DNA from: Polyangium fumosum
Lineage (GTDB): Bacteria; Myxococcota_A; Polyangia; Polyangiales; Polyangiaceae
Length of the DNA stretch: 64,000 nt
Direction: 5' to 3'
NCBI RefSeq assembly: GCF_005144585.1
Contig: NZ_SSMQ01000013.1
Coordinates: forward strand, 124,001-188,000
The notes under the pieces are model-generated. The model had not been told where the DNA came from and ran no database searches. It saw only the letters and a program-made list of their open reading frames with translations. Positions 15,902-45,676 of this stretch are shown in pieces. Numbering within the stretch: the stretch's first letter is position 1; every line of letters starts with the position of its first letter. The translations under genes and the position numbers were made by a program.

Positions 15902-15911
15902 CCGTTCAGCG

Positions 15912-16052
15912 CTTGGGGCTTCGGGTCGCCTACGGCGCCCTTCGCCCCAAACCTCTTCAACACTTGGGGCTTCGGGTCGCCAGCGGCGCCCTTCGCCCCA
16001 AACCTCTTCAACACTTGGGGCTTCGGGTCGCCTGCGGCGCCCTTCGCCCCAA
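15912..16052. repeat. 51-bp tandem repeat, three copies, each a hairpin
   Basis: Copies start at 15912, 15963 and 16014, an exact 51-bp period. Each begins CTTGGGGCTTCGGGTCGCC and ends with GGCGCCCTTCGCCCCAA, which can fold back on the beginning (TTGGGGC against GCCCCAA). The copies differ at only a few positions; the third ends after the palindrome. The array lies between convergent genes (large lipoprotein, + strand; small helical protein, - strand), like the A-type repeats elsewhere in the window. Confidence 0.9.
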
Positions 16053-42999: not shown

Positions 43000-43554
43000 C
43001 TAGCCGGTGGTTTGGCGGCTGGCTCGCTCGGCGAGCGTGGCGACGACTTGACGGATCGCGTCGGTGCCGGACGTGGCGGGGATCACGTAATCGTCGGGTG
43101 TGTCGGGGAATCGTTCTCGGTCGTCGATGCGGAGCCCGGCGAGCTCGCCGCTCCAGCCTGCGATCTCCAGCGCCACGACGATTCGATCGTGGATCCAGGC
43201 CATGGCGATTTCGGAGAGCGTGCCCGCGCCGCCGCCGACGGCGACGATGGCATCCGCATGGGCGACCAGCGCGTTCCGCAAATGCCCGAGCCCGGTCGGA
43301 ATCGCGATATCGACGTACGCATTGGCGGCGCGCGGGTCATGCCCCGGAAGCAGCCCCACGGTATCTCCGTCTCGATACCGCGCCGACGCGCGCGCGCCGC
43401 GACAAGCGGCTTCCATCACGCCGCCGAGGCCGCCGGTGAGGACACGAAAACCAACCTCGACGGCCGCACGACCGGCCTCGAAAGCAGCTTCGTACGCGGG
43501 AGATCCAGGGAGCGCGGTGCCGTCACCGATGATGGCGAGAAGGGGGCGGGGCAT
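43000..43554 (-). CDS. LOG-family (TIGR00725-type) Rossmann protein
   Basis: The 184-residue protein has the SLOG Rossmann layout: LLAIIGDG at the N-terminus, VLTGGLGGVMEAACRGA (about 38-54), GLLPGHD, and AIVAVGGGAGTLSEIAMAW at about 102-120. The last corresponds to the nucleotide-binding PGGxGTxxE motif of LOG phosphoribohydrolases, with GGGAGTLSE here at 107-115. LOG enzymes release cytokinin-type bases from nucleoside monophosphates; TIGR00725 members are less characterised. The last eight codons contain the block GGCGGCTGGCTCGCT that also borders repeat B2, so the C-terminus may have been altered by the repeat. A short reading frame lies seven bases upstream. Confidence 0.85.
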   Translation of the reverse strand: MPRPLLAIIGDGTALPGSPAYEAAFEAGRAAVEVGFRVLTGGLGGVMEAACRGARASARYRDGDTVGLLPGHDPRAANAYVDIAIPTGLGHLRNALVAHADAIVAVGGGAGTLSEIAMAWIHDRIVVALEIAGWSGELAGLRIDDRERFPDTPDDYVIPATSGTDAIRQVVATLAERASRQTTG

Positions 43555-43561
43555 GGTCGGA

Positions 43562-43684
43562 TCAGAGGGTATGCCGTTCCAGGTAAGACCGGAACATCAG
43601 GGAAAAGGGCGCCTCGGGTTGGGCGAAACGACGCAGGAGTTCCCGCTCGTCATCTCGCATCGCCTGCCTACCCTCATGGTTCAT
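43562..43684 (-). CDS. Possible small protein (40 aa) upstream of the LOG gene
   Basis: The frame from 43684 encodes 40 residues (MNHEGRQAMRDDERELLRRF and on, ending SYLERHTL); a second start at 43660 gives 32 residues and has a GAGGG/AGG-rich leader. Composition is protein-like (acidic and basic helix, then FSLMFRSYLER), unlike the Arg/Pro/Gly runs of non-coding frames here. It stops seven bases before the LOG start, consistent with coupling. No homologue is known to me. Confidence 0.4.
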   Translation of the reverse strand: MNHEGRQAMRDDERELLRRFAQPEAPFSLMFRSYLERHTL

Positions 43685-43814
43685 CGTTGACAAGACTTCT
43701 TACGTCCTCGCTCCGACGAGGGATCGAGGCATTGAGCGATAGGGAAGACCTTGTTTGCCTGCTTCATGTGCGTGCCTGGCGAGGTCCCGGGCTCGGAACG
43801 CCCGAAGTCCCGCC

Positions 43815-44072
43815 TGCACGCGTTGCAATCACCGATCGGACCGCCCCTCCCCCCGCCTGCACGCATTGCAAACACCGATCAGACCGCCCGGCCCGCCGCC
43901 TACACGCGTTGCAAGCCCCCCTCGGACCGTTCGGAGCCCCGCCTGCAAGCGTTGCAAGCCCCGCTCGGACCCCTCGGATCGCCCTCTGCAAGCGATGCAA
44001 GCGCCCCTCGGACCCCTCGGATCGCCCTCTACACGCGTTGCACGCGCCACCCCGCGCGCTCGAACCGCTCTT
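43815..44072. repeat. 43-bp tandem repeat, six copies, each with a near-palindrome
   Basis: The motif TGCA[A/C]GCGTTGCA (TACACGCGTTGCA in copies 3 and 6) begins at 43815, 43858, 43901, 43944, 43987 and 44030, an exact 43-bp period. Copies 4 and 5 are nearly identical; the others diverge mainly between the motifs. The period is not a multiple of three and no frame runs through it convincingly. It lies downstream of the GrpB-like gene and upstream of the LOG gene group on the minus strand. Confidence 0.9.
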
Positions 44073-44078
44073 GCCCGC

Positions 44079-44618
44079 CTACGCGGCCCCTCTCCCCGCC
44101 GCCCAGGCCAGCGCCCGCTCCCGCAGCCCCCGCACGAACGCGTCCTTCGCCTGCGAATACGACGAAAACATCGTCGCCCCGCGCTCCACGGCCTCCCGCT
44201 TGTGCCGCGCGTACGCCTCCACCTCCGCCGGATGCGCCCGCAAATACTCCCGCACCGCGAGGTTCCCAGCCCAGAACGGCCCCCCGTGCTCCGTCACCGC
44301 CACATTGAAATGCGGCGCCGCCCCCCGCTTGCGCAGGTACATCCGCCCCGGAACGAAGATCTCTCCAAAGTCCTCGTATCCGATCGCCACGAGCCCCGCG
44401 ACGTGCGGCTTTGCTTCCTGCAAATCGGCCACGCCGACCAGGATGTCGACGATCGGCTTCGACACGAGCCCCGGCACCGCCGAGCTCCCGAAGGGCTCGA
44501 TCGCCACCACCACCGGCCCGAGCGCCGCCCGCACACGCGCCGCCTCCGCCTCGAAGTCGAGGGGCCAGCGCGCGTCATAGGCGACGATCGAAATCGGCTC
44601 GTCGACGTCCCCGCGCAT
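44079..44618 (-). CDS. GrpB-family (UPF0157) nucleotidyltransferase-fold protein
   Basis: The 179-residue protein starts MRGDVDEPISIVAYDARWPLDFEAEAARV and has AIEPFGSSAVPGLVSKPIVDILVGV. This is the GrpB/UPF0157 pattern, in which GSS...KPIVDI resembles the nucleotidyltransferase active-site strand. The later FNVAVTEHGGPFW and REYLRAHPAEVEAYARHKREAV are also typical. The family has no well-established reaction; some members are linked to dephospho-CoA kinase fusions. Start 44618 has GGGAGGGG upstream, though the frame is open much further. It follows trpS by 20 bases and is probably co-transcribed. Confidence 0.85.
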   Translation of the reverse strand: MRGDVDEPISIVAYDARWPLDFEAEAARVRAALGPVVVAIEPFGSSAVPGLVSKPIVDILVGVADLQEAKPHVAGLVAIGYEDFGEIFVPGRMYLRKRGAAPHFNVAVTEHGGPFWAGNLAVREYLRAHPAEVEAYARHKREAVERGATMFSSYSQAKDAFVRGLRERALAWAAGRGAA

Positions 44619-44638
44619 GGCCCCTCCCCTCCCCGGCG

Positions 44639-45676
44639 TTACCCCTTCGCCGGCGGCGCCGCCGGCACGAGGCCAATCTTCTTGTACACCTTCGACAGCG
44701 TCTTCCACGCCCGCGACCGCGCCTTCTCCGAGCCCCGCGCGAGGATCTGCTCGAGGCCGGCCTTGTCCGCCATGACCTCGGCATACCGCTTCTGGAACGG
44801 CTCCAGCGTCGCCACCACCACGTCCGCGACCTCCGACTTCAGATCGCCGTACCCCTTCCCCGCGAAAGACGCCTCCACCACCTCCACCGGCTGGTTCGAC
44901 AGCGCCGCGTGAATGGTCAGGAGGTTCGACACCCCCGGCTTCTTCTCGACGTCGTAACGGATCTCCGTCTCCGAGTCCGTCACCGCGCGCTTGAACTTCC
45001 GGCGAATCACGTCCGGCGTATCGAGCACCGCGATGTAGTTCTCCGGGTTCGGGTCGCTCTTCGACATCTTCTTCGTCGGCTCCTGCAGAGCCATGATCCG
45101 CGCGCCCACCTTCGGCACGAAGATCTCCGGGGTCACGAAGGTCTCCGAGTATCGCTGGTTGAAGCGCTGCGCCACGTCCCGCGCGAGCTCGAGGTGCTGC
45201 TTCTGGTCGGCCCCGACCGGCACCAGGTTCGCCTGGTAGATCAGGATGTCCGCGGCCATCAGCACCGGGTACGTGAAGAGACCCGAATTGATGTTGTCCT
45301 CGTGCCGCGCCGACTTGTCCTTGAATTGCGTCATGCGCGACAGCTCGCCCATGTACGTCATCGTCCCGAGCACCCACGCGAGCTCGGCGTGCTGCGGCAC
45401 GTGGGATTGGAGCACGATCGTCGACGCCTCCGGATCGATCCCGCAGGCAATGTACTGCGCCGCGAACGACAAGCAGCGGTTCCGGAGCTCCGCCGGCACC
45501 TGCTTCACCGTCAGCGCGTGCAGATCGACGACCAGGAAGACGCAGTCGTACTGGTGTTGCAGCTCGACCCAGTTCTTCAGCGCGCCCACGTAGTTGCCGA
45601 GCGCGAGCTGCCCGCTCGGCTGGATCCCCGACAAGATGACTGGCTTCTTCTGCGGCTGCTGGGTCGACTCGCTCAC
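44639..45676 (-). CDS. trpS: Tryptophanyl-tRNA synthetase
   Basis: The 345-residue class I synthetase charges tRNA-Trp. It has the HIGH-equivalent PSGQLALGNY at 20-29, the tryptophan-pocket region VDLHALT, the stretch MTQFKDKSARHEDNINSGLFTYPVLMAADILIY, and KMSKSDPN with KMSKS at 203-207. Length is normal for the family. It is divergent from the universal stress protein gene, with a CCCAGGC/GCCTGGG inverted repeat in the interval. Confidence 0.96.
   Translation of the reverse strand: MSESTQQPQKKPVILSGIQPSGQLALGNYVGALKNWVELQHQYDCVFLVVDLHALTVKQVPAELRNRCLSFAAQYIACGIDPEASTIVLQSHVPQHAELAWVLGTMTYMGELSRMTQFKDKSARHEDNINSGLFTYPVLMAADILIYQANLVPVGADQKQHLELARDVAQRFNQRYSETFVTPEIFVPKVGARIMALQEPTKKMSKSDPNPENYIAVLDTPDVIRRKFKRAVTDSETEIRYDVEKKPGVSNLLTIHAALSNQPVEVVEASFAGKGYGDLKSEVADVVVATLEPFQKRYAEVMADKAGLEQILARGSEKARSRAWKTLSKVYKKIGLVPAAPPAKG

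Follow-up and report, generated by a model that had tools for sequence, protein, structure and literature searches.

What are six short near-palindromes, set at a fixed step beside genes of Polyangium fumosum, there to do? Within a 64,000-nucleotide stretch of this genome (the window; RefSeq assembly GCF_005144585.1, contig NZ_SSMQ01000013.1, positions 124,001 to 188,000), a first-pass annotation had picked out six near-palindromes at an exact 43-bp period and had offered three explanations for them: cooperative binding sites for a dimeric protein, a centromere-like or nucleoid site, or a plain minisatellite. The period and all six starts (43815, 43858, 43901, 43944, 43987, and 44030) were verified, and Tandem Repeats Finder reported 43809-44042 as a repeat of period 43 with 5.4 copies, 82% matches, and 0 indels. 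At up to 2 mismatches, the motif TGCA[AC]GCGTTGCA has 9 matches in the window, six of which are the array sites; this is above chance, as judged by 100 shuffles (mean 3.05, maximum 7). Two of the six sites are perfect, and four have one mismatch:

43809..44042, + strand, six-unit array of 43-bp units (Tandem Repeats Finder)
43815..43827, + strand, site 1, TGCACGCGTTGCA, 0 mismatches to the motif
43858..43870, + strand, site 2, TGCACGCATTGCA, 1 mismatch, both TGCA arms intact
43901..43913, + strand, site 3, TACACGCGTTGCA, 1 mismatch, one arm altered
43944..43956, + strand, site 4, TGCAAGCGTTGCA, 0 mismatches, GCG between perfect 5-bp arms
43987..43999, + strand, site 5, TGCAAGCGATGCA, 1 mismatch, both TGCA arms intact
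44030..44042, + strand, site 6, TACACGCGTTGCA, 1 mismatch, one arm altered

The sites at 43901 and 44030 carry TACA in place of one TGCA arm, and the window's own array is a somewhat worn copy. What stays near-constant is TGCA-N5-TGCA; the C-type motif is imperfect as a palindrome.

The array had also been described as lying upstream of a LOG-family gene group. Its position is as described, but it lies closer to the end of a grpB-family gene than to the LOG-type gene:

43000..43554, - strand, SLOG cluster-4 (SLOG/LOG-type) gene (PF18306), the other neighbor, about 255-260 bp from the array
44079..44624, - strand, grpB-family gene (PF04229), stop codon 36 bp from the array
44639..45676, - strand, trpS-type tRNA synthetase gene (PF00579), next to this locus in each of the six Polyangium genomes

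In one species (G005), the grpB-family gene is not at the locus, and the array comes directly after trpS. A tie between the array and the LOG gene is unsupported, since arrays elsewhere adjoin unrelated genes. An operator of the LOG gene was likewise rejected, the neighbors elsewhere being AddA-like helicase (facing EAL-CBS), Uma2, secretin, histidine kinase, and AhpC genes.

A genome search with the window array as query and with the motif returned further arrays on other contigs of the window's own genome; the window array is one of a family at unlinked loci. An orientation-free two-site pattern (TGCA-N5-TGCA twice, gap 28-31) matched 17, 30, 19, 19, 25, and 15 times in six Polyangium genomes, against 0 in each for a backward control. 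When the gap was widened to 16-45, the genus yielded 134 matches (control, 6 overall), 125 of them still at gap 28-31. One of these 125 (G003:C24:13434) is solitary and coding-like in look, and eight of the remaining nine wide-gap matches are a separate repeat. The units of that repeat, TGCACC(C/G)GTTGCA around a CCCCCTGT stretch, occur once or twice in five of the six Polyangium genomes (G000:C164:20874, C52:1446; G001:C1:767359; G002:C23:164207; G003:C25:16306, C95:695840; G004:C111:92786, C144:135896).

We chained sites into arrays with steps of 41-44 permitted, at most 2 arm mismatches per site, and weak edge sites included, and counted 30 arrays in nine locus groups of genomes G000-G005, with four to seven arrays found per genome. 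This count stands apart from an irregular four-site cluster (L118), single sites (L117 and L119-L122), and the arrays of G146, G153, G205, G209, G298, and Bacteroidales. Fourteen of the 30 arrays have 7 sites and 13 have 6, with one each at 8, 4, and 2 sites; two of the seven sites counted in L185 are doubtful, and some edge sites of other arrays are weak. The step is 43 bp in 129/160 cases and 42 bp in the other 31/160. The seven arrays of G001 lie between 2.76 and 10.36 Mb on a contig of 13.24 Mb. The array with two sites only is that of locus 6 in G000 (L114), which has its array end and downstream sequence in common with L111; because of this, and because their G001 counterparts (L124 and L126) have a downstream gene in common, a segmental duplication that included the array end is likely between these two loci.

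In a symmetrized profile of 147 units from 23 arrays (G005 arrays excluded), the TGCA arms are near-constant, CG is conserved at +/-9 and 10, and positions 15, 18, and 21 are weaker. The extended palindrome CGNYTGCANNCGTTGCARNCG had all 39 of its matches within arrays in the three genomes searched; G000 has 25 copies of the bare 13-mer, six of them outside the counted arrays (control, 3). The asymmetric center flips between neighboring sites in nine arrays (L113, L115, L123, L127, L129, L134, L135, L140, and L141) while the step remains 42 or 43 bp. L134, for example, has site orientations -,+,+,+,-,+ with every step at 43.

Comparison between species separates the arms from everything around them. 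All six species carry the array at three loci, namely trpS/LOG (that of the window), AddA-like helicase/EAL-CBS, and Uma2/222-aa gene; a fourth, pilQ/SBBP, has it in four species, and the loci past the three universal ones vary between species. Across 53 pairwise alignments of orthologous arrays, which are non-independent counts since the pairs have common ancestry, the arms were substituted at 52/2480 (2.1%, a value lowered by TGCA-based site detection), versus 1678/5479 (31%) for the spacers and 6204/19040 (33%) for the 200-bp flanks. In the same pairs, the five center bases differ at 343/1550 and positions 7-12 at 748/3711. With sites defined in one species only, which lessens the detection bias and does not remove it, arm divergence is 224/5214 (4.3%). 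The site centers shift between species: ACGCG/ACGCT, common elsewhere, is found in 0/27 sites of G005, where CCGCG/CCGGC occupies 23, and G002 is mixed. Within an array, the least-alike pair of equal-length spacers has 24-50% identity in 19 of the 29 arrays compared, and some units have identical spacers. Under the plain minisatellite, as framed at the outset, the motif would drift freely at an unchanged period. What drifts is the spacers (31%), with the arms at 2.1-4.3%, and the minisatellite in this plain form is not borne out.

The arrays lean toward the 3' ends of genes. Genes were called by a simple script based on codon scores. By these calls, 23/30 arrays have a stop codon no more than 60 bp away, as do 7/9 locus groups in at least one species; when a 250-bp block was placed at random in 88 intergenic gaps from the G001 sample, the figure was 13%. 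The genes on the array side were gained, lost, or reordered while the array remained: Uma2 and a 463-aa gene have swapped order in G003 and are both absent from the fetched stretch of G002, where an SBBP gene is additional at an array locus. In three comparisons (L113 vs L134, L116 vs L184, and L141 vs L188), homology ends no more than about eight bases from the stop codons that border the array. Uma2-type nuclease genes adjoin or lie near several arrays (L113/L123/L186, L127, L142, and L316), also in the distant G153; each genome has 18-30 Uma2 matches, and the count of Uma2 genes beside arrays is biased because most places were fetched for holding arrays.

We suggest, with somewhat better than even confidence, that the array is a cooperative DNA landing platform for a putative dimeric DNA-binding protein whose dimers would sit four helical turns apart. 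Each TGCA-N5-TGCA site, together with the weaker outer positions, would hold one dimer that is blind to the direction of the asymmetric center. Steps of 42-43 bp, or four helical turns, would place 6-7 dimers on nearly one face of the helix; neighboring dimers would touch, so that the array would fill cooperatively and form a nucleoprotein body of about 270 bp. Rather than controlling the next gene as its operator, such a body may be architectural: it may bound or insulate transcription units at their downstream side, or anchor the nucleoid. We favor an architectural role because the arrays lie mostly just behind the stop codons of functionally unrelated genes and at few places per genome. The arms are constrained, the spacers are free, the period is kept, and the direction of the center is ignored, a combination that points to double-stranded dimer sites rather than to slippage or RNA pairing. 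With extended sites confined to arrays in three genomes, cooperative dimer sites are the best supported by the comparisons among the explanations first offered. It is from these sequence comparisons that we infer protein binding, the dimeric state, cooperativity, and the architectural role. If a protein does bind, the chromosome of Polyangium (genome size about 11-13 Mb) would bear a phased, multi-site nucleoprotein system that shares its geometry with the F-plasmid centromere and keeps its positions from species to species.

The step itself had been read as close to four helical turns. The step holds, but the argument from helical spacing is weakened by a habit of unrelated Polyangium repeats. 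In a sample of 1.56 Mb (1.16 Mb of G001, mostly evenly spaced and including 120 kb around parB, and 0.40 Mb of one G005 contig), we counted 19 noncoding tandem arrays whose period is at least 35, at 42, 43, 64, 65, 85, 107, 127, or 129 bp, and 10/19 have a stop codon within 60 bp. Periods of at least 20 that are not multiples of 3 (17 arrays, coding or not) fit a 21.4-bp quantum with a mean cosine of 0.983, versus a highest cosine of 0.744 among 2000 sets drawn uniformly over such periods. Much of this fit is carried by the preference for 43 bp, because nine of the 17 periods are 43; the half step rests on 22, 22, 23, 64, 65, and 107. Periods in Nonomuraea (400 kb, 71% GC) are 22, 23, 23, 25, 28, 28, 34, and 46, with no 21.4-bp habit, and 100 kb of Methylobacterium has one tandem array overall. 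The sampled arrays with the 43-bp habit are unrelated in sequence to the TGCA motif, and some have inverted repeats as judged by eye. Dyad symmetry is at most a possible rule for 43-bp arrays as a whole: the combined p was 0.02 with long arms (18 units; on this measure the window consensus scored no better than its shuffles) and 0.04 with free arms (16 units). Examples of stretches with noncoding repeats at 43 bp or another 21.4-bp multiple include L201, L303, L223, L314, L334, L318, L324, L331, and L325. The window has a further tandem repeat at 15905-16052 (51-bp period, 2.9 copies, 94% matches), called noncoding and lying between two converging gene ends.

Such unrelated arrays can occupy the very places where the TGCA array is found in other species. 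Behind pilQ, the TGCA array is present in G001 and G004, and unrelated arrays of 43 bp and 42 bp are present in G000 and G005, respectively; a slot beside an orthologous HAD-hydrolase gene behaves in the same way. Listed first are three mutually unrelated 42/43-bp arrays behind pilQ, of about 5-6 copies, and then the two arrays of the HAD slot:

L295, 5990-6244 (G000), behind pilQ
L296, 2494-2698 (G005), behind pilQ
L129, 5904-6131 (G001), behind pilQ
L130, 5740-6081 (G000), HAD-hydrolase slot, unrelated 43-bp array
L137, 5861-6131 (G004), HAD-hydrolase slot, TGCA array

On one side of the HAD slot, G000 and G004 are 88% homologous as far as the array edge, where the homology ends. The TGCA motif is thus not needed at these two slots, since other species have an unrelated 42/43-bp array there. 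Because unrelated Polyangium repeats share the period, 43-bp spacing alone is weak evidence and no mark of the TGCA motif, and the spacing may stem from something other than the protein of the TGCA motif. The argument for putative binding sites is one from arm conservation, not from spacing alone.

A wider reading, which we hold tentatively and as a whole at rather less than an even chance, is that Polyangium has an undescribed genome-wide class of interchangeable arrays, whose periods come in quanta of two helical turns (21.4 bp; mostly 43 bp) and which lean toward gene 3' ends. By extrapolation from the sample, there might be one to two hundred such arrays per genome, each family with its own motif and the TGCA palindrome family as a conserved core set. 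At some loci, one family would replace another while slot and period stay, so that what is kept would be an architecture (a phased filament or chromatin-like body) and not a sequence. The habit of 43 bp and other 21.4-bp multiples makes it testable whether helical phasing by a bacterial chromatin protein decides which intergenic tandem repeats arise or persist.

The same habit lends itself to a reading without function, in which a replication or repair mechanism of Polyangium makes repeats of about 43 bp (in 21.4-bp steps) and the array is merely its product. This would account for the fit of the 17 sampled arrays to the 21.4-bp quantum, unlike the periods of Nonomuraea, and for the unrelated arrays that fill the pilQ and HAD slots, and it agrees with the worn edge sites and with the identical spacers of some units, as from recent duplication. 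Slippage or gene conversion, however, homogenizes whole units, yet here spacers have diverged within arrays (to 24-50% identity in 19/29) while the arms stay, and between species 2-4% divergence in the arms stands against about 31% in the spacers. In-phase flips and 6-7 copies at unlinked loci are not expected from it either. We regard this minisatellite reading as rather unlikely. A centromere-like partition or nucleoid-anchoring site, onto which a ParB-like protein would load and then spread or tether, had been proposed at the outset and fits in architecture: sopC also has 43-bp repeats with inverted repeats in the parts of its description cited here (PMC9178275, PMC6238139), and extended sites are confined to arrays in three genomes. 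Against it are the four to seven arrays per genome, the wide spread of the seven in G001, all of them more than 1.3 Mb away from parB (at 8.38 Mb), and the flanking genes scanned (some neighbors had no Pfam family), among which neither parA nor parB was found. One ParB_N match each is found in G002, G003, and G005, against 3 in G000 and 2 each in G001 and G004. As to clustering of the arrays near the replication origin or terminus, GC skew taken at 40 samples was too coarse to show it, and a search for dnaA, rpmH, and parS motifs in 120 kb around parB and in the first 16 kb found nothing. We judge a partition site unlikely.

Since the arrays stand behind stop codons, they could also act as RNA, as a hairpin series in 3' untranslated regions, where it would end transcription or shield transcripts. 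The window array does fold better than its shuffles (z = -2.9; 0/200 shuffles equal). Repeats with inverted arms tend to fold better than shuffles. Outside the arms, complementarity within units at positions 7-21 was 1357/2820 against 1359.3 +/- 14.4 when unit halves were shuffled within the array, and spacer-facing halves gave 1183 matches against 1165 +/- 14, a value reached by 50/500 shuffles. RNA-type covariation was thus not found at positions 7-21, and the arms are too invariant for a covariation test. Over 43500-44200, Rfam 15 returned no covariance-model match at E up to 1, and no terminator-like site was found; nor does an exact 42/43-bp phase have a clear use in RNA. RNA hairpins were rejected as the explanation on the lack of covariation at positions 7-21, and we consider an RNA element very improbable. 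Fainter still is the case for palindromic repeats of the REP/BIME type, which a RAYT transposase would have spread: like them, the units are palindromes, form arrays in both orientations, and sit at 3' ends, but GTAG lies beside 7/190 units (its complement CTAC beside 8, CGTC beside 32, and GACG beside 40), and three genomes have no solitary extended units. This reading we find scarcely credible.

Such arrays were also sought beyond Polyangium. Within the class, the two-site pattern matches 25/317 genomes: the six of Polyangium, G153 (9 matches), G205 (8), G209 (3), G115 (2), and 15 with a single match. The backward control matches 16 genomes, with a maximum of 9 (G160, outside the genus), so single matches are background. 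In G146, from another family of the order (L098, L145, and L146), a related motif TGCACTCGTTGCATGCGC occurs in irregular clusters and spacings beside 26-bp tandem repeats. A stricter three-site pattern, run over 84,980 species genomes (a set that may lack the genome of the window itself), returned 17 stretches, 8 of them from Polyangium; the other nine are three 9-bp repeats, two with steps of 45 or 48, one 42-bp array of G153, and three from Bacteroidales (41-42). The Bacteroidales arrays are from metagenome-assembled genomes of gut bacteria, namely one Parabacteroides assembly (two contigs) and one from goat rumen:

L151, 3848-4108, Parabacteroides, seven sites, steps 41, 41, 41, 41, 42, and 42
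L158, 5842-6102, Parabacteroides, seven sites, steps 42, 42, 41, 41, 41, and 41
L147, 7214-7602, goat-rumen Bacteroidales, ten sites including edge sites, 41-42-bp steps

The spacer of the Parabacteroides arrays has a second palindrome, TTTCCAG...CTGGAAA. In site pattern and step, the Bacteroidales arrays appear similar to those of Polyangium, a likeness that need not mean common descent. If the wider reading of interchangeable arrays is true, the Parabacteroides arrays (seven sites, 41-42 bp) would make the device a multi-phylum one. A viral origin was rejected: 46 viral contigs match a three-site TGCA-N5-TGCA pattern, but mostly with alanine-rich or coding-type repeats as judged by eye, with spans of 97 (steps of 42), and flanks of the Polyangium family were not seen by eye among these 46. 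A plasmid search at E up to 0.01 gave no match.

Literature searches, by title and abstract for the exact motif and on broader topics, returned no publication that we recognized as describing the Polyangium arrays, and three known systems serve for comparison. REP/BIME elements, as treated in the cited part of PMC3733652, likewise have palindromic units in arrays, often downstream of genes, and keep a GTAG tag in over 90% of the members of most families. Unlike them, the Polyangium units have neither a GTAG nor a CGTC tag kept at one foot, and the arrays are strictly phased, at few loci per genome, and accompanied by no solitary extended units in three genomes.

Closer in geometry is sopC, the parS of the F plasmid, which in the cited parts of PMC9178275 and PMC6238139 consists of twelve repeats of 43 bp; ParB dimers bind its 16-bp inverted repeats, ten such 16-bp motifs being present in the twelve repeats. 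Tandem repetition at 43 bp, with an inverted repeat in every unit, is common to that description and the Polyangium arrays; binding by a dimer is known for sopC and would be predicted here. In the same description, sopC is a single plasmid locus of twelve repeats beside sopAB, whereas Polyangium has several chromosomal arrays, mostly of 6-7 sites, with par genes not found among the scanned neighbors. We take the sopC motif to differ in sequence from that of the Polyangium arrays.

The nearest published kind that we found are the STAR elements of Staphylococcus. In the cited part of PMC3532100, these have a conserved 14-bp motif, T(G/A/T)TGTTG(G/T)GGCCC(C/A), in 1-7 repeats at the sequenced loci, are dispersed between genes with variable spacers (40-44 bp at one locus), and have no described function. 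The Polyangium arrays resemble them in having a short conserved motif, spacers that vary, and intergenic loci scattered over the genome, although TGCA-N5-TGCA does not fit the STAR consensus (PMC3532100). As far as that account goes, the STAR motif is a direct repeat and its locations differ between species; the Polyangium motif, in contrast, is dyad-symmetric and flips in phase, its full step measures 42 or 43 bp, with 6-7 sites in 27/30 arrays, and its arrays stand at three loci common to six species.
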